Source: an archaeon (GTDB lineage: Archaea; B1Sed10-29; JAJSAI01). From it: a stretch of 41,625 bases of DNA. The notes beneath the pieces were generated by a model. That model was given only the letters and a program-made list of their open reading frames with translations, had not been told where the DNA came from and did no database searches. The stretch spans positions 1 through 41,625 of the forward strand of contig JAJSAI010000028.1 of the NCBI GenBank assembly GCA_024274695.1, written 5' to 3'. A program made the position numbers and the translations under genes. Positions 570 through 26,859 of this stretch are shown in pieces (the stretch's first letter is position 1; every line of letters begins with the position of its first letter).

Positions 570-1271
570 TCACTGGAAGAAGGCTCCTACTTCCACGTCC
601 ACTCCCTTGGACAGGGTGAACGGGATCCACGCTAGCGGGTGGACGGTGTCCGTCATTCTTTTTATCCGGAGCATTCTCTTTTCTTCTTCAAGCTTCATTT
701 CTATGGTCCCGTTGGTGAGATACTCCAGGGTTGTTATGACCTGGGGGGAGTGTATTCCTTCTTCTAGCACGAAGAAGCTCGTGTAGTTGTTCTCGGCTGC
801 TTTGGCGGTCACGAGCTGCACGAACTTGTACACGCTCCTTTCCTCGTTATGCAGCAGCAGGTCTGACAGAGAGTCTATGACCAGCACGCCTCTTTCTCCT
901 TTCTTGAACGCTTCCTGTATGAGTATTAGCAGCTCGTCCAGGCGGGTGACGCTTGACAGCACGTTTTCCCCTTGCTTCGCGCCTATCCTCCAGGAGTACG
1001 CGTCTATGAATGTTAGGCGTTCACTGTACCTGCTTATGTCAAAGCCCCTGGCCTTCATCTGGGCCTTGATGCTTTCAGGGGATTCTGTTGTTGTGACGAA
1101 GACCACGTTTTCTCCTTTTGTCAGGGTATGGTATGCTACTTGTCTCACGAGCGTGGTCTTTCCGGTGCCAGGGAATCCTATCACGAGCACTGCCGAGTTC
1201 TCTGGGACTCCGCCTTGGAGCAGTTTGTCCAGGCCCGGCACGCCAGTGCTCTTCCTCTTAACTTCGTTCAT
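570..1271 (-). CDS. KaiC-like ATPase
   Basis: A 233-residue single-domain KaiC/RadA-type ATPase. Visible features are the N-terminal STGVPGLDKLLQGGVP signature, Walker A GFPGTGKTT at about residues 32-40, and Walker B VLVIDSLSDLL at about 127-137. The segment after strand 3 reads TTTESPES, so only one acidic residue stands where KaiC has a Glu pair. The C-terminal R-I-K-R-M element matches the family's closing strand. The start overlaps the end of the upstream gene by 4 bases (ATGA), so translation is probably coupled. It belongs to a three- or four-gene minus operon with a degenerate KaiC paralogue and a Roadblock-like protein. In archaea, single-domain KaiC proteins are proposed signalling ATPases; the partner here is unknown. 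Confidence 0.88.
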   Translation of the reverse strand: MNEVKRKSTGVPGLDKLLQGGVPENSAVLVIGFPGTGKTTLVRQVAYHTLTKGENVVFVTTTESPESIKAQMKARGFDISRYSERLTFIDAYSWRIGAKQGENVLSSVTRLDELLILIQEAFKKGERGVLVIDSLSDLLLHNEERSVYKFVQLVTAKAAENNYTSFFVLEEGIHSPQVITTLEYLTNGTIEMKLEEEKRMLRIKRMTDTVHPLAWIPFTLSKGVDVEVGAFFQ

Positions 1272-1909
1272 TTGAACACGAACCCCTTCTCGGTTATGCT
1301 GTAGTACAGGGTTTTCTTTTTAACATCCCACGGCCATCGGATTATCTTCATGACCCTTTTTCTCCCTCCTGTCATCTCAAGCCTGAGCACGCCTTCAAAG
1401 GATTCTTCCAGGAACAGCATTACTTCAGGGTGGACCATCTTGTGGTGAATGAGCGCCATCACGTGCCCGCAGTGCTTTTCCCAGGAGAGCAGCCTGTCCG
1501 CCAGGAAGTCTTTTAGCTTGACGGAGTTACTGCAGACCTCCGGGTCAACTCCTCCTAGCCCGCTTTCCATGAAGATGTGGGACAGGGAGTCTATGAGCAG
1601 CCTGTCAAAGCATTCTTTCTGCGTTCTTTTCCTTTCGTGGATCGTTCGGAAGAAGTCTTCGGGCTCTGGGCCCGCGTACACTATGTTATCCCGCCCGAGA
1701 CCGATCGCCGTCAGTTTTTTGATTAGGTTATTGGCTGACGCTCCTGCAACGAGCGCGCCCACGTTCTCCCCTTCTCTCATTCCCCCCAGAAGATAATGTA
1801 GCCCGAGCAGGGTGCCTCCTGCTCCAGAGTCGTGCTCTACCAGCACGTTATGGTCAGGGTATCCTCCGAGCACCTTGTCAAGATACTTTATTCCAGTGCT
1901 CACTCCCAA
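1268..1909 (-). CDS. Degenerate KaiC-like protein (Walker A lost)
   Basis: A 213-residue paralogue of its neighbours. It keeps the KaiC entry motif (VSTGIKYLDKVLGGYPD) and a Walker B-like strand (RLLIDSLSHIF), but the nucleotide loop reads EHDSGAGGTLLG. The invariant Lys-Thr of GxGKT is replaced by Gly-Thr, so ATP hydrolysis is unlikely. The reading frame is intact and overlaps genes on both sides (4 and 10 bases), so it is probably a working pseudo-ATPase rather than a decaying gene. A regulatory or scaffold subunit for the active KaiC next to it is the simplest reading. That role is inferred from the missing Lys and the operon position. Confidence 0.8.
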   Translation of the reverse strand: MGVSTGIKYLDKVLGGYPDHNVLVEHDSGAGGTLLGLHYLLGGMREGENVGALVAGASANNLIKKLTAIGLGRDNIVYAGPEPEDFFRTIHERKRTQKECFDRLLIDSLSHIFMESGLGGVDPEVCSNSVKLKDFLADRLLSWEKHCGHVMALIHHKMVHPEVMLFLEESFEGVLRLEMTGGRKRVMKIIRWPWDVKKKTLYYSITEKGFVFK

Positions 1910-2217
1910 ATTATCCTCTCCAGCTCCCGCAGCCTCAGAAGGTTCCGGGTTATGTTAATGTCAGGAGGGCACACCGCGCGAAGGTATCCCTTGCCAAACT
2001 TTATGCCTATCACTATCTTATCGTCGTAGAAGGTCAGGGACTGCCTGAATCCTTTCGGAATCCCTTTGGACTTGAGGAATCCTAAAACGCTCTTGTCAAG
2101 CGCTGTTTTCCGCCCGTACGAGAGGATCTCCTTTCCCTTGTCGTCCAGGACAACAAGGTTCTTGAGCGCAGGAAACCTTTCTCTGACGATCCTCCTGAAC
2201 TCTTTCTCGCTAATCAT
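1900..2217 (-). CDS. Roadblock/LC7-like small regulatory protein (tentative)
   Basis: A 105-residue protein heading the minus-strand KaiC operon; its end overlaps the next gene by 10 bases. It begins with a helix (ISEKEFRRIVRERFP). A strand-turn-strand (NLVVLDDKGKEILS), a strand carrying FYDDKIVIGIKFG, and a glycine-turn strand (GYLRAVCPPDIN) follow, before a closing helix. That order resembles Roadblock/LC7 (profilin-like) domains, which bind small GTPases or ATPases and often lie beside archaeal signalling ATPases. No strict motif proves it. A TATA element at about 2242-2251 lies 29 bases upstream. A structure prediction would settle the fold. Confidence 0.5.
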   Translation of the reverse strand: MISEKEFRRIVRERFPALKNLVVLDDKGKEILSYGRKTALDKSVLGFLKSKGIPKGFRQSLTFYDDKIVIGIKFGKGYLRAVCPPDINITRNLLRLRELERIIWE

Positions 2218-2241
2218 CAGTTAAAGGAAAAATGCCTGGGT

Positions 2242-2280
2242 TATTTAAAAGTTTGGTGTGGTGGGGAGAAACGGTTATAA
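2242..2280. promoter_or_regulatory. Divergent TATA pair of the KaiC cluster
   Basis: Minus-strand TATA CTTTTAAATAA (2242-2251) sits about 29 bases before ATG 2217. Plus-strand TATA GGTTATAA (2273-2280) sits about 27 bases before ATG 2305, implying leaderless transcription of the plus operon. Both KaiC operons therefore start from one 87-base intergenic region and may be co-regulated. Confidence 0.6.
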
Positions 2281-2304
2281 ACAACGGGCCTCTTTGGTAA
2301 GACC

Positions 2305-3039
2305 ATGAGAGTGTCCACCGGAGTCCCCGGGCTGGATGACCTTACTGGAGGAGGGTTCATCCCAGGGACTGTTAACATTGTCGCGGGAACCCCTGGAACA
2401 GGGAAAACAATCCTGGGAATACAGTACCTTGTCGAGGGCGCGAGAAGGGGGGAGAGAGGAATTTACATCTCTCTTGAGGAAAGGGCTGAAGACGTTGCAA
2501 AGTTTGTTTCATCCTTCGGATGGGATATTATCGGGCTCGCTGAAAAAGACTTCCTCAGAATCAAACAGTTCAAGATATCCCCTCCCAAGGAAGAGAGGAT
2601 AGAAGGGGTGACGGCCACCCTGCGCAGGTACAAGCTGCCTCAGGCTGCCGGCGTGCTGGACTTGTACACTACCCTCAAGGACGATGTGGTCACGGGAAAG
2701 TACTCCAGGGTGGTCATAGACTCTGCCAGCGTCCTAAAGTATTCCGCGGACGGGGAGAGGGAGAGCAGGGTTCACCTGGCCAGCTTGTTCAGGTTCCTCA
2801 AGGAACACGGTCTCACCACGATCGTCATAATGGAAAAGAAAACTGCTGATGATCCCTTCGAGTTTGAGGAGTTCCTCGCGGACACAGTGATAAGGCTTGC
2901 TGACTACCCCACCAGGGAGGAAAGAAAAAGAGGCCTGGTGGTAGTGAAGATGAGGGGGTCCAGCGTGGACAGGACCACAAGACCGTACAGGATAGGAGAG
3001 AACGGGATAGAAGTGTACTCAGGAGAGTATCTCTTGTGA
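2305..3039 (+). CDS. KaiC-like ATPase
   Basis: A 244-residue KaiC-family ATPase with all catalytic parts intact. It has the entry motif STGVPGLDDLTGGGF, Walker A GTPGTGKT (about residues 28-35), the acidic segment ISLEERAED (about 55-63), Walker B RVVIDSASVL, and the closing KMRGSS strand. The intact LEE is where KaiC has its catalytic Glu pair. An insertion of about 30 residues rich in charged side chains follows the LRIKQF strand. The ATG lies about 27 bases after a TATA box, so the mRNA is probably leaderless. It is the first gene of a plus operon with a second KaiC ATPase and a V4R protein. Confidence 0.9.
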   Translation: MRVSTGVPGLDDLTGGGFIPGTVNIVAGTPGTGKTILGIQYLVEGARRGERGIYISLEERAEDVAKFVSSFGWDIIGLAEKDFLRIKQFKISPPKEERIEGVTATLRRYKLPQAAGVLDLYTTLKDDVVTGKYSRVVIDSASVLKYSADGERESRVHLASLFRFLKEHGLTTIVIMEKKTADDPFEFEEFLADTVIRLADYPTREERKRGLVVVKMRGSSVDRTTRPYRIGENGIEVYSGEYLL

Positions 3040-3051
3040 GGTGATCTTTGA

Positions 3052-3729
3052 ATGGAAAGGGTTGAGACTGGAGTGAACGGGCTTGACGAAATGCTTAACG
3101 GGGGCATACCCAAGAACTACTCTGTCATAGTCATGGGAGGGCCTGGAACAGGGAAGACCCTGTTCGGCTCGCAGTTCGTTCACACTGGAGCCATGAAAGG
3201 AGAAAGAGGAGTTTACATTACTCTGGAAGAAGCTCCGGAAAGAATAAGAAAGAACATGAAGAACGCGTTCGGCTGGGACTTCAGCAAGCTGGAGAAAAAG
3301 GGGCTCCTGGCCATCGTGCCCGTGCAAAAGTACAACATGCAGCACTTGTATGACGTGATACAGTCAGAGGTCACCCAGAGGCAGACCACGCGGGTGGTGA
3401 TAGACTCTGTGACAATGCTCAAGATGTACTTCAAGAGCGACTTCGAGTTCAGGAGGAACCTGTTCGACCTGCTGGAGCTCCTGTCAAGGCTTGACTGCAC
3501 CACCGTGCTCACTGCAGAGAGACACTACTTCAAGCCAGAGGAAATGAGGCCTGAACTGGAAGAGTTCATAGCCGACGGGGCCATCGCGTTGTACAACCTG
3601 CCCCGGAAGAACGAGAGGGTGAGGGCCCTTGAGATCATAAAAATGAGGGGAACCAGCCACAGCCAGACTATTTACCCGTTCCAGATAACAGGAGAGGGAA
3701 TAAGGGTCATACCCGAGGAGGTACTCTGA
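3052..3729 (+). CDS. KaiC-like ATPase
   Basis: A 225-residue single-domain KaiC ATPase, 12 bases after the previous gene. A GGTGA ribosome site lies in the gap, about 7 bases before the ATG. Walker A GGPGTGKT is at about residues 28-35, the Glu pair is in ITLEEAPER, and Walker B is RVVIDSVTML. The C-terminal KMRGTSH strand is conserved. It ends directly against the V4R gene, whose ATG follows the stop with no spacer, so the two should be made together. An active ATPase paired with a ligand-binding V4R protein suggests a sensor-effector pair; the signal is unknown. Confidence 0.9.
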   Translation: MERVETGVNGLDEMLNGGIPKNYSVIVMGGPGTGKTLFGSQFVHTGAMKGERGVYITLEEAPERIRKNMKNAFGWDFSKLEKKGLLAIVPVQKYNMQHLYDVIQSEVTQRQTTRVVIDSVTMLKMYFKSDFEFRRNLFDLLELLSRLDCTTVLTAERHYFKPEEMRPELEEFIADGAIALYNLPRKNERVRALEIIKMRGTSHSQTIYPFQITGEGIRVIPEEVL

Positions 3730-4506
3730 ATGGCCAAGGCTCACTCGTTCTCTTACCAGATAGGCAAGAAGATTGACACCGCCAAGGTCCAGAAGAAGAT
3801 GGGCGGGAAGCTGATCGGGAGCGTGCTGGAGTCCAGGATAGACGAGATAAAGGTGCACGTTTTCCCGAGCGGCAGAATAAGACTAACCGCCCAGGACAAG
3901 GAGTACTCAGAACTACAGCAGATGATATTCAACAACACGGTCGGCATAATCTCGTTCATAGAAGAACTGATCAAAGCAGCAGGGGTAAATACTGACGCGA
4001 AAACGGTTATGAAAACAGGGAAACAGGATGACGCGTACGATTACGACCAGAGCGTGATAGGAGAAGAAACCAGGATCCCTGCAGGGGTAATGCAGATGAT
4101 CACAATATCCCTGTACCAGTTCGCAGGACAGTTCCAGGCGAGCAGGACAATGACCCAAGCCGGAGAAAAAGAGGGCAGAAGGCTCGTAAAAGAAAAGAAG
4201 CCTAAGAACAAGAAGGAGCTCCTGAAGCTGGTTAAAAAGTTTTTGGAAGAAAACTCTTTCGGTAAAATGGAGGAAGTAAAAGAAGAGAAAAGAAGGCTCG
4301 TGGACGTTATACTGAGAGTAACCTCCTGCGCGTTCGCGTCAGGAGCCCCAAACATTAACGAGGCAATCTGCGATTTCACCAGAGGAGTTATAAGGGGTGC
4401 GTTCGCGGAGTTCAAGGGAGCGGAGACCGTGAGCGTTAAGGAAACAAGGTGCTGGGCCAAGGGAGACGCGTACTGCGAGTTCGAGGTTTACTCCCTGGCG
4501 GCTTGA
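3730..4506 (+). CDS. V4R-domain protein with uncharacterised N-terminal region
   Basis: A 258-residue protein. The C-terminal 90 residues carry the V4R (4-vinyl reductase) pattern, including the hallmark WAKGDAYCEFEV with its Gly-Asp-Cys turn and a second Cys (ETRCW) upstream. V4R domains are small-molecule-binding modules, often with a regulatory role. The first 85 residues form an alpha/beta region (SGRIRLTAQD, then a helix with IISFIEELIKAAG) that I do not recognise. A Lys-rich linker (KEKKPKNKKELLK) joins the parts. It lies directly after two KaiC ATPases without a gap, making it the likely ligand-sensing member of the cluster. Confidence 0.75.
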   Translation: MAKAHSFSYQIGKKIDTAKVQKKMGGKLIGSVLESRIDEIKVHVFPSGRIRLTAQDKEYSELQQMIFNNTVGIISFIEELIKAAGVNTDAKTVMKTGKQDDAYDYDQSVIGEETRIPAGVMQMITISLYQFAGQFQASRTMTQAGEKEGRRLVKEKKPKNKKELLKLVKKFLEENSFGKMEEVKEEKRRLVDVILRVTSCAFASGAPNINEAICDFTRGVIRGAFAEFKGAETVSVKETRCWAKGDAYCEFEVYSLAA

Positions 4507-5291: not shown

Positions 5292-5651
5292 ATGCACAAG
5301 TGGATCCTGGTGCCCGCGGTGCAGGGGTCTGAAGAAATTGCCAGAACACTGCAGGACCAAGCGTCTAAGATAGTCCTTGTTTACGTGGTGGACTCCAACG
5401 CGAACACGTCAACCGCGTCAGTCGGTACAGAAATAAGAAAAGCGGAAGACAGGATGGACAGGATAAAAAAAGAGCTTTCAGGAAAAGAGATAGTGGTCAA
5501 GGACTACGTGGAATGGGGGTCCTGGCCTGACAAGCTGAAGGCAATAGCTGCAATAGAAAAGTGTGACGAGATAATAGTCCCGAGGAACCAGGAAACGCTG
5601 TGGCTCAGGAGAACGCTAAAAAAGGCAGGGCTTGAAGTGAAAGAAGCATGA
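5292..5651 (+). CDS. Universal-stress-protein-like small protein
   Basis: About 119 residues. It starts HKWILVPAVQGSEEIARTL and then has a core strand KIVLVYVVDS, a long helix (IRKAEDRMDRIKKEL), a strand (KDYVEWGSW), and CDEIIVPRN with a final short helix. This is the UspA strand and helix order. The ATP-binding G-2x-G-9x-G-S/T loop is not evident, so it would be a non-ATP-binding Usp. I prefer ATG 5292, which has a GGTG site 7 bases upstream, over in-frame ATGs at 5253 and 5274 that lie inside the AbrB gene. It overlaps the following lipoprotein gene by 4 bases. Confidence 0.5.
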   Translation: MHKWILVPAVQGSEEIARTLQDQASKIVLVYVVDSNANTSTASVGTEIRKAEDRMDRIKKELSGKEIVVKDYVEWGSWPDKLKAIAAIEKCDEIIVPRNQETLWLRRTLKKAGLEVKEA

Positions 5652-6196
5652 ACGCCAGAATCCTTCTTCTCGCGCTGATCATCAGCACCGTGTTCTTGTC
5701 AGGCTGCTTAGAGAAGGTGCCCTGGCTCGAGCAGAAAATCTGTCCACAGCCAAAACAGATGACAGCAACAGCCTACTTCTGCCCAGAAGACGCGTGCGCG
5801 GAGCACATCATAAGTCTTATAGACAACGCGAACACGAGCGTGCACGTGGCAGTATACTCCTTCACCCTAGACGCGCTTGGTGACGCGCTGGTAAGAGCAA
5901 AACAGAGGGGGCTTGACGTGAAAGTCATCGTTGAGAAAGACCAGCTCTCCCAGTATTCAGAGTACCAGAGGCTCAAGAGCGCGGGAATCCCTGTCAGGGT
6001 GGACAGTAACCCCGCTAGCATGCACAACAAGTTCGCGGTCATAGACGGGGAGATAGTGATCACTGGAAGCTTCAACTGGAGCAAGAACGCGGACACCAGG
6101 AACGATGAGAACATTGTGGTCATACGGTCCGAAGGTCTTGCGTTTGACTACGAGAAAGAGTTTCAGGAGCTGTTCGAGTCAGGGACAGTCCTTTGA
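5648..6196 (+). CDS. Secreted phospholipase D-like lipoprotein (single HKD motif)
   Basis: 182 residues. The N-terminus is a lipoprotein signal: hydrophobic LLLALIISTVFL followed by the lipobox LSGC at Cys20. The mature part is a single PLD catalytic domain with the motif MHNKFAVIDGEIVITGSFNWS (about residues 127-147). It contains the His-x-Lys-x4-Asp triad and the GSFN element typical of Nuc-type endonucleases and PLD-like hydrolases. At this size it would act as a dimer. It may degrade nucleic acid or phosphodiesters at the cell surface. It overlaps the convergent TrpRS gene by 18 bases and the upstream gene by ATGA. Confidence 0.85.
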   Translation: MNARILLLALIISTVFLSGCLEKVPWLEQKICPQPKQMTATAYFCPEDACAEHIISLIDNANTSVHVAVYSFTLDALGDALVRAKQRGLDVKVIVEKDQLSQYSEYQRLKSAGIPVRVDSNPASMHNKFAVIDGEIVITGSFNWSKNADTRNDENIVVIRSEGLAFDYEKEFQELFESGTVL

Positions 6197-8225: not shown

Positions 8226-9494
8226 ATGATAAGCAAGTCGGACCTGAGGGATTATTTTAGGGAAAGGGAAGAGCTTCCAGAAGACATAATGCCAAGAGAA
8301 CTGCAGGTCCCGACCAAGGAAAAGCAGGTGATCTCAGTAATAGGCCCCAGAAGGGCCGGCAAAACGTATTACTTTTTTTCACTAGCGAAAAAACTCGGGT
8401 CATACGCCCACCTCAATTTTGAGGACACACGACTGGCCGAGGCCACTGGCAAGGAAATACGGGACATCCTCAGAGAATACATAGCATTGTATGGAAAGCG
8501 ACCGAAGCACATTTTCCTTGACGAAGTGCAAGAAATCCCAGGATGGGATAGGGCGGTCAGGGAACTGCACGATCTCGGGAAGTACAGGCTGTTCGTGACA
8601 AGTTCTAGCTCCAAGCTCCTGAGCAAAGAGATAAGCAGCAGACTAAGGGGAAGGAGCCTTTCATTCCTCATACTCCCATTCAGCTTCCGGGAATTCCTAA
8701 GGTACAGGAAAACGAAAACAAGAAACCTCTCGCGGGACGAGGAAGCCATTGTCAGGAGCGGTCTCTCGGAGTACCTTGAGTTCGGAGGATTTCCTGACGT
8801 GGTGAAAACCGAGCACAAACTAAGAATACTCAAAGAGTACTACGAGATGACACTGTTCCGGGACTTCGTGGAAAGGCATGGGGTACTAAACATTGAACTG
8901 GCGAGAACGCTTCACGCGTTCATAGTGCAAAATCACTCTCGTGAAATCTCGGTCAGGGCAGCGTACAACAGGATAAGCTCTGTCACGAGGGCTGGAAAAA
9001 ACACCGTGTATGATTACATGGAAAAACTTGAGGACACCATGTTCTTTTTCATGCTGAAAAAGTACTCGCCCAAAGCCCACTTGAGGGAGACCTGGCCCAA
9101 AAAAGTCTACTTGTGCGACACTGGTCTGAGCAAGGTAGTGCGGCCGTCCCCTGACCTAGGGAGGCTCATGGAAAACGCGGTGTTCCTTGACCTCCTGAGA
9201 GAAAAAAACACGAACCCCCTGCTCGAGACATACTACTTAAAGCTCAAGGACGGAGAAGTGGATTTTGTGATAACAGAAGGAAACATGCCCTCCCAATTAC
9301 TACAGGTTACTCTCGCTTCATCCGAGGACGAGCTCGAGCGCAGGGAAGTCCGGAGCCTGATAAAAGCCGGGCGCCTGCTAAGGTGTAAGGATCTCAGGAT
9401 AATAACCTGGGACCACGAGGACGAGAAAAACGTGAGGGGCAAGCGAATCGTGCTGACTCCCTTGTGGAAATGGCTGCTGCAGAGGAGGTTATGA
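8226..9494 (+). CDS. AAA-family ATPase with DUF4143-type C-terminus
   Basis: 422 residues. Walker A GPRRAGKTYY (about residues 40-49) and Walker B HIFLDEVQ (about 97-104) are followed by a sensor strand (LFVTSSSS) and the FREFLRY box. Then come a winged-helix region and a C-terminal segment with GEVDFVI. These order as in the AAA_14/DUF4143 archaeal ATPases. The PD-(D/E)xK-like core is incomplete: after GEVDFVI the expected Lys strand reads LLQVTLA. The function of the family is unknown, though links to defence or mobile DNA are often suspected. Its stop overlaps the dphB start by one base, so it is co-translated with a housekeeping gene. Confidence 0.85.
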   Translation: MISKSDLRDYFREREELPEDIMPRELQVPTKEKQVISVIGPRRAGKTYYFFSLAKKLGSYAHLNFEDTRLAEATGKEIRDILREYIALYGKRPKHIFLDEVQEIPGWDRAVRELHDLGKYRLFVTSSSSKLLSKEISSRLRGRSLSFLILPFSFREFLRYRKTKTRNLSRDEEAIVRSGLSEYLEFGGFPDVVKTEHKLRILKEYYEMTLFRDFVERHGVLNIELARTLHAFIVQNHSREISVRAAYNRISSVTRAGKNTVYDYMEKLEDTMFFFMLKKYSPKAHLRETWPKKVYLCDTGLSKVVRPSPDLGRLMENAVFLDLLREKNTNPLLETYYLKLKDGEVDFVITEGNMPSQLLQVTLASSEDELERREVRSLIKAGRLLRCKDLRIITWDHEDEKNVRGKRIVLTPLWKWLLQRRL

Positions 9495-10754: not shown

Positions 10755-11909
10755 CTAGAAGTAGGAAATGATCTTGGACAGGACCTCTTCCGCGGTCTCC
10801 CTGAAGAAGATGTCCCTCTCCCTGAGGTAGTCCATGTTCTTGGCGCGCGGAGAAACTGCCCTGACAGGGTTTATGACTATAATCTTTTTCCCAGCCCTCC
10901 TGGCCTGCCTGATCACTCCCCTGCGGTCTGCAGAAACTCCTATAACCAGCAGGGCCCTGGCTTTTTTGCTGAAGGAAACAGGAGTATAGTCAGGGAATAT
11001 CTCCACCTCCTGCAGGGGAGGCCTGCTCTTCCGCGTCGGGATCGTGGGAAGGCCCACGCGCTCAAGAAGCCCGTCCAGGTTGTCCGTGAAAACCTTGAGA
11101 ACAACTCCCTTGTCATGCAACTGTTTGAGGATGTAATGAGACCTTGAAGGGGAGGCTTTCAGGGCGACGATATTGAACCTGCATAACTTTCTGAACTCTG
11201 CCTCAGGATCAGCAGCAAACCTTAACGGAAGAGGATCGTCCTCCCCGAAAATGAAGCCCTTCCCTCGAACGTCCACGTAAAAGTCCTCGTGAATAGAGGG
11301 CAGAGTAGGCACTCCTGCCTCGTACGACAGTCCAGAACCGCACAAGACGTCAAACGGAGCGTACTCCCTCAGGTCATGGTCCTTCGATTCTTTTATCAGC
11401 TTCAGGGGAGGGACCTTGTGAGGTCTTTCAGAGCACAGCCTCCGGAGGACAAGAGGCAGCAGTTTATCTTTCGGGCAGCAGGACACCTCGTACCTTATCA
11501 CTCCCGAACTTCCCCTCTTCCTAAGGCTTGCGGAGATAGTGAACCCGGAAACAGAAAACGTGCTCTTAGCAAGCCGGACCGCGTGCCCTTCAAGAGCGCC
11601 GAGGATTTTCTTGTGAAAGCGTCTGGCCTCGTTGAGAGGAAGCTTGTGCTTGCAGAAAAAGTACGGGCACTCCAGGTAAAGATCCTTCCCATCCACGCTC
11701 AGCCTTCCCTGGAAGTAGACTACCCTGCTCTTTTTTCCAGAGTCTCTCTTCCAGCCCCAATGAATGTTCTTGCGCACGAACTTGAACGCCTGAACGTCAG
11801 AATCGGACAATCCTGTTAGGAAAATCCTGCACGGCACTCTCAATCCTCTCCTGCAAAGTCTGCCGGGAAAAACGGTCGCGGACCGCTCGGCACTCAAAAT
11901 CTTCTTCAT
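10755..11909 (-). CDS. Sirtuin-fold (DHS-like NAD-binding) protein with novel N-terminal domain
   Basis: 384 residues. The C-terminal half (about 190-384) aligns with Sir2. It has CGSGLSYEAGVPT (cf. GAGISxxSGIP), SPSRSHYILKQL (cf. PNxaHxaLaeL), FTDNLDGLLERVGLP (cf. TQNIDgLhxxAG), LLVIGVSADRRG and IIVINPVRA. The catalytic His that should follow DGLxxxAG is absent (the segment reads PTIPTRKSRPP), and no zinc Cys pairs are seen. Deacetylation is thus doubtful; NAD binding or hydrolysis remains possible. Residues 1-185 form a basic domain with Cys-rich patches (LECPYFFCKHKL, VSCCPKD) that I do not recognise. A short leader ORF overlaps its start by ATGA. Confidence 0.7.
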   Translation of the reverse strand: MKKILSAERSATVFPGRLCRRGLRVPCRIFLTGLSDSDVQAFKFVRKNIHWGWKRDSGKKSRVVYFQGRLSVDGKDLYLECPYFFCKHKLPLNEARRFHKKILGALEGHAVRLAKSTFSVSGFTISASLRKRGSSGVIRYEVSCCPKDKLLPLVLRRLCSERPHKVPPLKLIKESKDHDLREYAPFDVLCGSGLSYEAGVPTLPSIHEDFYVDVRGKGFIFGEDDPLPLRFAADPEAEFRKLCRFNIVALKASPSRSHYILKQLHDKGVVLKVFTDNLDGLLERVGLPTIPTRKSRPPLQEVEIFPDYTPVSFSKKARALLVIGVSADRRGVIRQARRAGKKIIVINPVRAVSPRAKNMDYLRERDIFFRETAEEVLSKIISYF

Positions 11910-11964: not shown

Positions 11965-11974
11965 CTTTTATATT
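11965..11974. promoter_or_regulatory. Shared TATA element, divergent promoters
   Basis: CTTTTATATT reads as a TATA box on both strands. It lies about 35 bases before GTG 12009 on the plus strand, leaving room for a GGTGA site. It lies about 20 bases before the leader ORF ATG 11950 on the minus strand. Confidence 0.5.
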
Positions 11975-21567: not shown

Positions 21568-22359
21568 TCACGCGCCGTGCCCAGAGTACCTCCTGAGCCC
21601 CCTTGAGAGCATGAAGCGCGTGAGAGTGTACAATGCCCCGGCCCAGGCCATGCCCACCACGAAGAGGATCAGAGCCTGCTGGAATCCTATCCCTCCCAAC
21701 AGCGCCCTTGCGGGCAGGCCTGCCATAAACTCGAAAGGCAGCAGGCCTGACACGCTCTTGAACCACTCAGGGAAAAAGGACAATGGAATCAACGCTCCAG
21801 AGAACAGCCTGATTATGAAACTGAACGCGCCCATGCATCCTCTTATGCGCCCTGTCCAGAACGCAGTCTCCCACAAGAGAGAGTAAACGAAAAACGAGAC
21901 AAAGAACGCGGGCAACAGCAAGAGCGCGAACGAAACCAGGTCCAGAGGACCGCGTCCTCCGAAGACGATTACCGTGAACAGGAGCGTCGGCAGAAAAATC
22001 ACTCCTTTAACAACCGCTCTGGACAGCGTGACGTGAAGAGCCTGCTCCTGCAGGCCCATTGGACGGACCAGATCACTGTTTATGCGCCCCCTCACTATGC
22101 TCCTGGCCATGCTGCCAGCAAAACCTCTTCCAGGAACAATGCTTCCTACAAAAAATATCGTCCCGTAGTACACGAGCAGCTGATCCAGTTCCATCGGCAG
22201 CCCGCCTGACGCGGCGTAAACGTGAGACCAGAGGAAGTAGTACGTCGTCATGTAAACCGGGAACGTGAGCAGGTTGAACAAGGCACCGAGCGCGTACGCT
22301 CGCAAAAACTCTTTCTCTAGTCTTATCCTCGCGGCAAGCTTACGAACCGTACGCTTCAT
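21568..22359 (-). CDS. ABC-2 type exporter permease
   Basis: 263 residues with six membrane helices. It resembles the COG3694/COG4587 type pairs of ABC-2 permeases. Marks are VYYGTIFFVGSIVPGRGFAGSM followed by RSIVRGRINSDLVRPMG, broken in the middle by the cytoplasmic loop that meets the ATPase. It overlaps the upstream permease gene by 20 bases. With that gene and the ATPase it makes one exporter; the substrate is unknown (lipid, drug or polysaccharide are usual for the class). Confidence 0.82.
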   Translation of the reverse strand: MKRTVRKLAARIRLEKEFLRAYALGALFNLLTFPVYMTTYYFLWSHVYAASGGLPMELDQLLVYYGTIFFVGSIVPGRGFAGSMARSIVRGRINSDLVRPMGLQEQALHVTLSRAVVKGVIFLPTLLFTVIVFGGRGPLDLVSFALLLLPAFFVSFFVYSLLWETAFWTGRIRGCMGAFSFIIRLFSGALIPLSFFPEWFKSVSGLLPFEFMAGLPARALLGGIGFQQALILFVVGMAWAGALYTLTRFMLSRGLRRYSGHGA

Positions 22360-23143
22360 ACCTCTTCAGCCCCGCCTTCCACAAGAGCCAAGCACTCAAA
22401 AGCCAAACGGTCCAGACCAGCAGAGAGAGAGCGATCAGGCCCAGAACCCCTTCGGGAGGAAACTCCTTCAAGGAGGACAGCGCAGGCCCTGTCGTGAAAA
22501 ACACCACCGGCAGGAACATTACCAGAACAAACTTCACGCTCGCGGGAAAGATCGTGACAGGATACTCTGAAACAGTGAAGTACGCGTTGTAGAACAGGTT
22601 CAACGCGTTAGTCCTGCCGAACCAGAAGCTCAAGGACTGTATCAAGAACACTATCGTGGACGCAATGGTAACGCCCAAGAACACCATCAATACTCCCGCC
22701 AACAGGCCAGGCAGGGAAATGTCAGCGCCCAACCAACCCGCCACAAGAAAGTACGCCACGACCCCGGACAGGTTCTTCAAAGCGCCCAACACATCAATGT
22801 TCGTGACCAGCAGGTAGATCACCGGATTCACAGGCTTTGACAGCACCGTGTTAAGCTCTCCGGACACTATTATCTCGTCCAGCTCCTCCGGAAAGATGTA
22901 TAAGAGGTTCCAGAAGAGGAAACCGAGGTTCATGAACGCCTGCAACAGGATCACTTCACCAAGAGTCCACCCCGCAATGACCCTGGCATGAGAGAAGATC
23001 ACCTGCCAAAAGAACAGGTTGACCAACAGGTAAGACGGCACGGTGATCAAGAGCACGGCAAAGTCTGCAGAGTACTCTCTCATTTCAGCGAGCCTCACCC
23101 GAGCCATATCCCACAACAGCCTCAGGTAATACCCTGCCCTCAT
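22340..23143 (-). CDS. ABC-2 type exporter permease
   Basis: 267 residues with six membrane helices, a paralogue of the next gene. Blocks include RLAEMREYSADFAVLLI at the first helix and EELDEIIVSGELNTVLSKPVNP, which includes the coupling loop pattern seen also in its partner (RGRINSDLVRPMG). It overlaps the ATPase gene by 4 bases and the second permease by 20 bases, so the three are translated as a unit. Confidence 0.85.
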   Translation of the reverse strand: MRAGYYLRLLWDMARVRLAEMREYSADFAVLLITVPSYLLVNLFFWQVIFSHARVIAGWTLGEVILLQAFMNLGFLFWNLLYIFPEELDEIIVSGELNTVLSKPVNPVIYLLVTNIDVLGALKNLSGVVAYFLVAGWLGADISLPGLLAGVLMVFLGVTIASTIVFLIQSLSFWFGRTNALNLFYNAYFTVSEYPVTIFPASVKFVLVMFLPVVFFTTGPALSSLKEFPPEGVLGLIALSLLVWTVWLLSAWLLWKAGLKRYEAYGS

Positions 23144-24105
23144 TTTTTCTCCCCGTAAACCTTGACGAGAAGCCTGTCCAGCCCAGGTTCTTTCACGTCA
23201 AGGTCTATAACGTTCACAGCCTTCAACAGCGCTGCAACAGCCTTAGGAAGCCTGCCGTCGGTTTTCAGCTCAAGCTCCACCCAGTTCTTCCCCCTGCCGA
23301 CCAGCCTGCCCATCCTCACGACGGACTCCAGCCTGGCCTTGTCCTTAACGCGATCGTACTCGACGTACAGTATCTTGTACCCTAAGTAATTCTTCTTCAG
23401 CCTGGAAATGCTCCCGTGGAATATTTTCTTGCCCTTGTCAAGCAGCAGGACCTTGGTGCACAGAGCCTCCACGTCCAGCACGTCGTGCGTGGTCAGCATC
23501 ACTGTGAGCTTGTGCTTCTTGTTAAAGTCCCGGATGAAGTCCCTTACAGCCTCCTTGGAGACCGCGTCAAGCCCTATCGTGGGCTCGTCAAGAAACACTA
23601 TCTCAGGATAGTGCAACAGCGCGGCCACCAGGTTGCACTTCATTCTCTCTCCCAGGCTCATCTTTCGGACAGGCTTTTCCGCAAGCTTTTTAACCCCAAG
23701 AATAGAGTCAAAGTACTCCAGCCTTTCGCTGAAATCATCCTGCGAAACCTCGTAAACGTCACGGTAGAACTTGAACGCTTCCATTGCCGGAATGTCCCAG
23801 AAGAGAAGGGACTGCATACCGAAAACCACTCCTATCCGCTTCAGGTACTCTCTTTTCCTTTCCCAGGGCACGAACCCCAGCACCCTGGCGCTGCCGCTAG
23901 TGGGAGTCATGATCCCCGTAAGCATTTTTATGGTCGTGGTCTTCCCGGAACCGTTCTCCCCAAGGTATCCGAGGATCTCCCCCCTCCTCACCTTGAAAGA
24001 AACGTGGTCCACTGCCACGATCTCCTTCTTCCTGCCGAACAGCCTGCGCAGTCCAGATCCCTTCTCGCGTGCAGTAAAAACCTTCGTGAGCCCATTAACC
24101 ACCAT
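23140..24105 (-). CDS. ABC-2 exporter ATP-binding protein
   Basis: About 321 residues. Walker A GENGSGKTT, signature MSLGERMKC, Walker B IVFLDEPTIGLD and the switch His in LTTHDVLD are all present. The C-terminal 80 residues (YKILYVEYDRVKDK onward) form the usual small regulatory domain of the COG4586 type. It powers the two permeases encoded downstream. I prefer ATG 24105 with GAGG 5 bases upstream; TTG 24126 is an alternative. TATA-like TTTAAAG lies near 24160-24166. Confidence 0.93.
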   Translation of the reverse strand: MVVNGLTKVFTAREKGSGLRRLFGRKKEIVAVDHVSFKVRRGEILGYLGENGSGKTTTIKMLTGIMTPTSGSARVLGFVPWERKREYLKRIGVVFGMQSLLFWDIPAMEAFKFYRDVYEVSQDDFSERLEYFDSILGVKKLAEKPVRKMSLGERMKCNLVAALLHYPEIVFLDEPTIGLDAVSKEAVRDFIRDFNKKHKLTVMLTTHDVLDVEALCTKVLLLDKGKKIFHGSISRLKKNYLGYKILYVEYDRVKDKARLESVVRMGRLVGRGKNWVELELKTDGRLPKAVAALLKAVNVIDLDVKEPGLDRLLVKVYGEKK

Positions 24106-24324
24106 CACGTCCTCTGCCAACTGCAAGACCTCCCTTCAGTCATCCAAGGGTTCCAGAACTTTAAAGAAAACGGTTTAAACCAGCACGTTTTTCCAGAACT
24201 CAGCAGAGCGCGAAGACCATCCTGTTCACCCAACAGGGAGTAAACCGCAGTCAGAGAATAAAAAGATTGCGGAAGACCAAAAGGGTATAAACACCCTCAT
24301 CCTTAAGATATAGGGGGCGGGAGA

Positions 24325-25668: not shown

Positions 25669-26859
25669 ATGGACAAGAGCGTGTTCTCCAGGATCGTGCT
25701 GGAGAGCGAGAAACTAAAGCAGAGGGCTTCGGAACTAGAGTTCAGAAGGTATTTGTACCCTGAAGTAAAACGCGTGCCAGAACAGTTCTTCGTAGGAATC
25801 TATGGGATGAGGGGAATCGGCAAGACCACCCTCTTACTACAATTGGCCAGCGAGAATCCTGACAGCCTGTACTTTTCAGCGGACTGGTTGCACGTGAGAA
25901 TGACGGGAGTGTACGAGGTTGTAAAAGAAGGAGTAAGGCAGGGATTCAGGAACTTTTTCGTTGACGAGATACACTCCCAGCAGGACTGGACTTATCATTT
26001 GAAAACGCTTTACGATGAAGGAGAATGCAGAGTATTCTTTACGGGCTCTTCTGCCCTGAACCTTAGGCAGGGCGCGGACCTCTCAAGGAGAACGGTAATG
26101 TATCACATGAAGCCAGCTTCCTTCCGGGAGTTCCTGTGCCTCAAGCTGGGAAAACGCTTGCCCGCTGTTAGTCTGAAAAGTCTGCTAGACCACAAAAAGC
26201 GGAAGACACTGCTGAGCAAGCTGGCACCGTACTCAGAGCATTTGGAGGAGTATTTTGCCAGGGGAGGAGTACTGTACCAGGAACCAGGCGAGCTATTCTA
26301 TAAGATCATGCGCAACATGCTGGACCGGTGCATGACCCATGACCTGATGGCCCTCAGGGACGTTAACATTAACGTTGAACAGGACGCGCTCCAGATCCTG
26401 AAGCTCATCGCCTGGTCCAGCCCGCTGGAAGTGAACTACGCGAGGATAGCAGACAGTCTGGAGATCAGCAAGCCCACTGTCAAGAGCATGGTGTTCTTAT
26501 TGCAGAAAGCAGGGCTTGTGAGAGTAGTAGAGCCCTGCGCAAAAGGACATGCAGGAATAAGAAAAGAACCCAAGATACTGTTGAACATTCCCCTCAGACA
26601 CTTCTTGTGCCACGAGACCGGGAAAACTCCCCCGGTAGGAGGGCTTAGGGAAGACTTTTTCGTCCAGCACGCTGACCCAGAATGCTATCCTAAAACAGAG
26701 AGGGGGGCAAAAACCCCCGACTACGTTAAGGATGGGACAACATTCGAAATCGGCGGGGCCTCCAAAGCTAGGGTCCAGGGACAAAAAGTAACGGTGGTGG
26801 ACGAACTCTCGCTAGAGCCTGACACGATCCCATTGTTCCTAACAGGCTTTACCTATTAG
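25669..26859 (+). CDS. AAA-family ATPase with C-terminal nuclease-like domain, palindrome-flanked
   Basis: 396 residues. Walker A YGMRGIGKTT (about residues 44-53) and Walker B NFFVDEIHSQ (about 99-108) are followed by the sensor strand VFFTGSSALNL and the FREFL box. A winged helix (ADSLEISKPTVKSMVFLLQKAGL) comes next. The C-terminus has REDFFV, PDYV and FEIGGASKAR, matching the PD-(D/E)xK-like end of archaeal DUF4143 ATPases. TATA TTTTTAAATG lies 26 bases upstream. Both ends of the gene are bounded by pairs of 30-bp palindromes, so it may be a mobile or self-regulated cassette. It is only distantly like the ATPase at 8226. Confidence 0.82.
   Translation: MDKSVFSRIVLESEKLKQRASELEFRRYLYPEVKRVPEQFFVGIYGMRGIGKTTLLLQLASENPDSLYFSADWLHVRMTGVYEVVKEGVRQGFRNFFVDEIHSQQDWTYHLKTLYDEGECRVFFTGSSALNLRQGADLSRRTVMYHMKPASFREFLCLKLGKRLPAVSLKSLLDHKKRKTLLSKLAPYSEHLEEYFARGGVLYQEPGELFYKIMRNMLDRCMTHDLMALRDVNINVEQDALQILKLIAWSSPLEVNYARIADSLEISKPTVKSMVFLLQKAGLVRVVEPCAKGHAGIRKEPKILLNIPLRHFLCHETGKTPPVGGLREDFFVQHADPECYPKTERGAKTPDYVKDGTTFEIGGASKARVQGQKVTVVDELSLEPDTIPLFLTGFTY

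Follow-up and report, generated by a model that had tools for sequence, protein, structure and literature searches.

Deacetylation by canonical sirtuins is described as requiring their zinc module (PMC12700824). Several Sir2-type NADases have a Rossmann domain without this module and need an Asn–His pair, namely N133/H171 in DSR2 (PMC10981675), N142/H186 in SPARSA (PMC10781750) and N163/H206 in human FAM118B (PMC12700824). The His lies 38–44 residues past the Asn in these proteins, and DSR2, SPARSA and FAM118 lose some or all of their activity when it is mutated (PMC10981675; PMC10781750; PMC12700824). The protein described here, referred to below as the pseudo-sirtuin, is encoded in a 41,625-nucleotide stretch of archaeal DNA (the window). 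It shares with DSR2, SPARSA Sir2-APAZ, ThsA and human FAM118 a Rossmann domain that retains the Asn and has no zinc module, but it has no His past this residue (Asn277), and it matches the family SIR2 rather than the SIR2_2 type of defence NADases. Its best sequence and fold matches are the canonical sirtuins of PF02146 (SIRT3, Sir2-Af1 and Sir2Tm), with which it has in common the Rossmann core and the GxGxS, TxNxD (Asn and Asp), G-S and Asn-Pro motifs. It differs from them in the absence of the His-Gly and of the zinc cysteines, in the replacement of the TQN Gln by Asp, in an 11-residue insertion and in the presence of an additional basic N-terminal domain (N-domain).

The gene is read on the reverse strand from an ATG at 11909 to a stop codon at 10757–10755 and encodes 384 residues (Table 1). 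Its single-frame codon signal is unbroken, with values of 0.26 in the N-terminal half and 0.32 in the C-terminal half, compared with 0.26–0.50 for the other genes of the window. The annotated frame scores positive and highest along almost the entire gene; the sole weak stretch comprises the first ∼15–20 codons, so that the true start may lie slightly downstream of the ATG. The third-position G+C content (0.66) is like that of the neighbours, the codon bias is typical for them, and the longest stop-free run among 30 shuffled versions of the entire window was 282 codons. By its composition, this is a genuine gene. A frameshift concealing the zinc module was rejected, as the other two frames at 10900–11100 contain stops and no CxxC pattern. 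The gene is flanked by two candidate TATA boxes, both read by eye, one upstream of the ATG (Table 1) and a similar one (TTATAAA) between the gene and the following SSB gene, suggesting that the pseudo-sirtuin may be its own transcription unit.

Table 1. Features of the pseudo-sirtuin gene and of its product
Feature	Position	Strand	Basis or remark
Entire gene (384 aa), encoding a basic N-terminal and a divergent SIR2 domain	10755..11909	-	Open frame, coding signal, Pfam
Residues 1–185, orphan basic domain, pI 10.3	11355..11909	-	Cys 19, 27, 81, 86, 144, 145, 159
Residues 186–384, sirtuin-like Rossmann domain	10758..11354	-	Pfam/PDB sequence match, AF2, Foldseek
Residues 191–201, GSGLSYEAGVP, NAD-binding GAGxS...GIP loop, kept	11307..11339	-	Alignments
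Residues 204–214, PSIHEDFYVDV, insertion before R215	11268..11300	-	Alignment; pLDDT < 50
Residues 275–280, TDNLDG, Asn277 and Asp279 kept, Gln to Asp	11070..11087	-	Alignments
Residues 287–304, short linker replacing His-Gly and the four-Cys zinc module	10998..11051	-	Alignments; no later His
Residues 324–326, GVS in place of canonical GTS; Gly and Ser conserved	10932..10940	-	Alignments
Residues 346–348, INP, Asn347 kept	10866..10874	-	Alignments
TATAAAAG, putative archaeal TATA box, 56 nt before the ATG	11965..11972	-	By eye

PF02146 (SIR2) is the sole Pfam family matched by the protein, at residues 191–289 with a score of 34.9 bits (curated cut-off 24; E 1.9e-8), and the nearest solved relatives in a PDB sequence search are SIRT3 (E 2.5e-7) and other canonical sirtuins. 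The NAD motifs did not arise jointly in any of 200,000 shuffles. An AlphaFold model of the sirtuin half, computed with 32 sirtuin rows as input, displays a confident Rossmann core (mean pLDDT of about 78–95 at residues 181–200, 231–290, 311–350 and 371–384), with low confidence at residues 205–224 and 295–307. The top Foldseek matches of this model are all Sir2 proteins, with a target-normalised TM score of about 0.5; this match is not independent evidence, because the alignment rows given to AlphaFold were themselves sirtuins. The C-terminal half is of sirtuin ancestry and has diverged, most likely from the canonical type.

The pseudo-sirtuin was aligned with 32 sirtuins for a comparison of individual residues. 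Outside the His/zinc block, it keeps 19 of the 27 columns that are at least 90% conserved among the 32 sirtuins, including S195, N277, D279, G324, S326 and N347. The NAD-pocket motifs (GAGxS, TQN[IV]D, GTS and N) are thus mostly retained, with two changes inside the pocket, Gln to Asp at position 276 and Thr to Val at position 325. R215 is kept according to the alignment, but its assignment is uncertain since it follows the 11-residue insertion in a low-confidence stretch. None of the six His-Gly/zinc columns is kept: the catalytic His-Gly, present in all 32 aligned sirtuins, is absent, and the zinc block is missing together with its four cysteines (0/4). No His occurs anywhere C-terminal of N277, so that a misalignment cannot conceal a catalytic His in the usual place. 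The removal of one block with retention of the pocket makes the pattern look less like random decay. These results bear out the sequence-only reading in its coordinates and frame for the gene, in its sirtuin fold for the C-terminal half and in the loss of the deacetylase His and zinc cysteines. Its claim that the NAD-pocket motifs are kept holds for GSGLS, N277/D279 and N347, with the corrections that the canonical GTS has become GVS here and that Asp stands in for the TQN Gln.

The retention of Asn277 and Asp279 with a new acid adjoining them is compatible with an enzyme of altered chemistry (a deacylase, ADP-ribosyl transferase or glycohydrolase), in which Asp276 or another residue would, together with Asn277 and Asp279, take the place of the His. 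We consider such an enzyme very unlikely: canonical sirtuins are described as needing their zinc module to deacetylate (PMC12700824), no precedent was found in the literature searched, and the proposal rests on a single sequence.

The sequence-only reading had further held that such Sir2 variants act as defence NADases and that the gene may be an NAD-depleting or NAD-sensing system. The former is not supported: the known enzymes keep and need the Asn–His pair. The loss in the pseudo-sirtuin of a His that the zinc-less NADases need argues against NAD depletion, which we regard as unlikely from this comparison. Sensing stays in place as a possibility, whereas depletion is disfavoured by the missing His, by the housekeeping neighbours and by the best matches, which are to canonical SIR2. 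The surroundings of the gene are archaeal housekeeping (translation, DNA/RNA) and not a defence island. The neighbours encode a TrpRS-like synthetase, a tRNA endonuclease, an FeS-assembly protein, an AAA_14/DUF4143 ATPase, the diphthine synthase Dph5, an RPA-like SSB and a DUF357 protein, with NMD3, a beta-CASP nuclease and a DNA ligase farther out. An NAD-hydrolysing defence effector, with an N-domain that senses infection and a Sir2 domain that depletes NAD, would account for the loss of the zinc module, which is common to ThsA, DSR2 and FAM118, and could draw on the AAA_14/DUF4143 gene (8226–9494, + strand), whose product contains DUF4143 in full and has PDC-S01, a PADLOC candidate, as a match (E 6e-90). 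However, this gene lies about 1.3 kb away, past two housekeeping genes and on the opposite strand, and DUF4143 ATPases also score over the cut-off in five of 14 control genomes. The pseudo-sirtuin itself has no real match among the PADLOC defence models (PDC-S65 comes closest, with 22 residues at E 0.013), and the His whose mutants lose or lower NADase activity in DSR2, SPARSA and FAM118 is the one it lacks. We therefore regard a defence effector as highly improbable. The pseudo-sirtuin seems to form a unit of a single gene, unconnected with defence, in an archaeon with a small genome (0.3–1.3 Mb for the genomes of the phylum examined). The archaeal identity of the host follows from its genes for Dph5, the RPA-like SSB, the tRNA intron endonuclease and DUF357.

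Several other features of the window were recorded. A second AAA_14 ATPase is encoded at 25669–26859 (+), and an ABC transporter operon at 21568–24126 (-) consists of an ATPase and two ABC2_membrane_6 permeases. KaiC-type ATPase genes are clustered at 570–1271 (-), 1268–1909 (-), 2305–3039 (+) and 3052–3729 (+) and are followed by a V4R-domain protein at 3730–4506 (+), so that 570–4506 is a possible archaeal signalling cluster. A small PLD-family protein at 5648–6196 (+) is weakly similar to the DISARM defence protein DrmC; no further DISARM genes were found among the proteins scanned.

The N-domain is strongly basic, with a net charge of about +24, and contains seven scattered cysteines with no CxxC pair. 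It has no match beyond chance to families in Pfam, NCBIfam, PHROG or PADLOC and none to PDB sequences. Two AlphaFold runs without N-domain relatives agree on a strand-rich order with helices near residues 92–106 and 150–158; these models are of low confidence (mostly pLDDT 45–67), too weak for the fold to be named. A Foldseek search with the N-domain model gave no match with E below 0.001 and a query TM of at most 0.25. Structure prediction and searches of residues 1–185 thus leave the domain without a fold or family match, in keeping with the earlier description of it as basic, novel and of unknown type; 'Cys-rich', which had also been said of it, is apt only in a mild sense (7 Cys in 185 residues). 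An internal duplication was rejected, as the self-alignment score is no better than for shuffled sequences. Residues 31–38 (LTGLSDSD) resemble the motif of LAGLIDADG homing endonucleases, but this region is modelled as a strand and not a helix in the single-sequence model, and a LAGLIDADG assignment was rejected (hhalign probability 0.1% with a small three-sequence profile; no Pfam or Foldseek match). Judged by its charge alone, the N-domain probably touches nucleic acid.

LAGLIDADG_3 domains occur elsewhere in the phylum, in 17 of the 19 genomes (L174–L193; up to 21 each) but not in the window's own genome. They lie mostly within very long frames and are probably inteins. In one related genome (G015, L045:132–1472), the SSB gene adjoins an intein-bearing ribonucleotide reductase, as read by eye. 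None of G008, G010 and G015 conserves the surroundings that the SSB gene has in the window.

The pseudo-sirtuin is known from one sequence in one genome assembly of 32 contigs. Relatives of the full protein or of the N-domain were found neither in the 19 genomes of the phylum nor in 394 archaeal genomes nor in 295 genomes of another archaeal phylum. Peptide-pattern scans of the viral and 84,980-species genome collections, which detect close relatives only, gave no relative among the matches listed; bacteria were covered for the N-domain by the genome_contigs pattern scans only. Among the 80 matches listed for sirtuin loci in genome_contigs, all 78 read in frame keep His-Gly after TxNxD. The viral_contigs, scanned with the pseudo-sirtuin protein alone, encode no relative, and the 21 viral_contigs sirtuins found in an alignment-based search match only within residues 154–316; the presence of the gene in viruses was rejected on this basis. 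Other candidates were also set aside: a weak match in G455 reads as a ParA/MinD-type ATPase, one in G499 has two stops inside, a weak SIR2 match in G008 falls on a frame that reads by eye as Hsp20-like, and matches of the N-domain alone at E 0.01–0.1 behave like background.

The chief rival to a functional binding module is that a sirtuin gene, either acquired or relict, is degenerating within a reduced genome, with catalysis gone and the frame still open but without function. Among the 19 phylum genomes, SIR2 scores over the cut-off in the window's own alone, and this restriction, the want of an orthologue in any genome searched, the changes at near-invariant active-site positions and the insertion beside the pocket are all as expected of decay. 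The 384-codon frame is nevertheless intact, its codon bias is normal, the pocket residues are selectively retained and the 185-residue N-domain, which is not a sirtuin remnant, has coding signal. We thus consider decay to be somewhat unlikely.

We favor the reading that the diverged sirtuin is a non-catalytic module that binds NAD(H) or ADP-ribose and acts on the attached basic domain, with a rough probability of 0.45. The evidence for it consists of the SIR2 matches in Pfam and the PDB, the confident Rossmann core, the 19 of 27 conserved columns kept outside the His/zinc block, the codon bias, the charge of the N-domain and the housekeeping neighbours; the evidence against it is that no orthologue was found in the searched genomes. 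Loss of the catalytic His and of the zinc module would have removed deacylase and NAD-hydrolysis chemistry, and most of the pocket for the ADP-ribose part of NAD would remain. The dead module would bind its ligand, NAD(H) or ADP-ribose, and would change the behavior of the basic domain, which probably touches nucleic acid. Also against this reading, the insertion at 204–214 beside R215 and the loss of the TQN Gln and the GTS Thr may have spoiled NAD binding too. A more specific form, a single-gene, NAD-responsive regulator in which a sirtuin fold turned pure NAD sensor is joined to a DNA- or RNA-binding domain of new fold, seems quite unlikely.

The weight of the finding is limited by its coming from one orphan sequence in one genome in 32 contigs. 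As a useful negative, the missing His sets the pseudo-sirtuin apart from the defence NADases. If the NAD-binding reading is true, it adds a domain of unknown fold, and if NAD is bound without turnover, a canonical sirtuin would be convertible to a sensor, with NAD recognition separated from catalysis.
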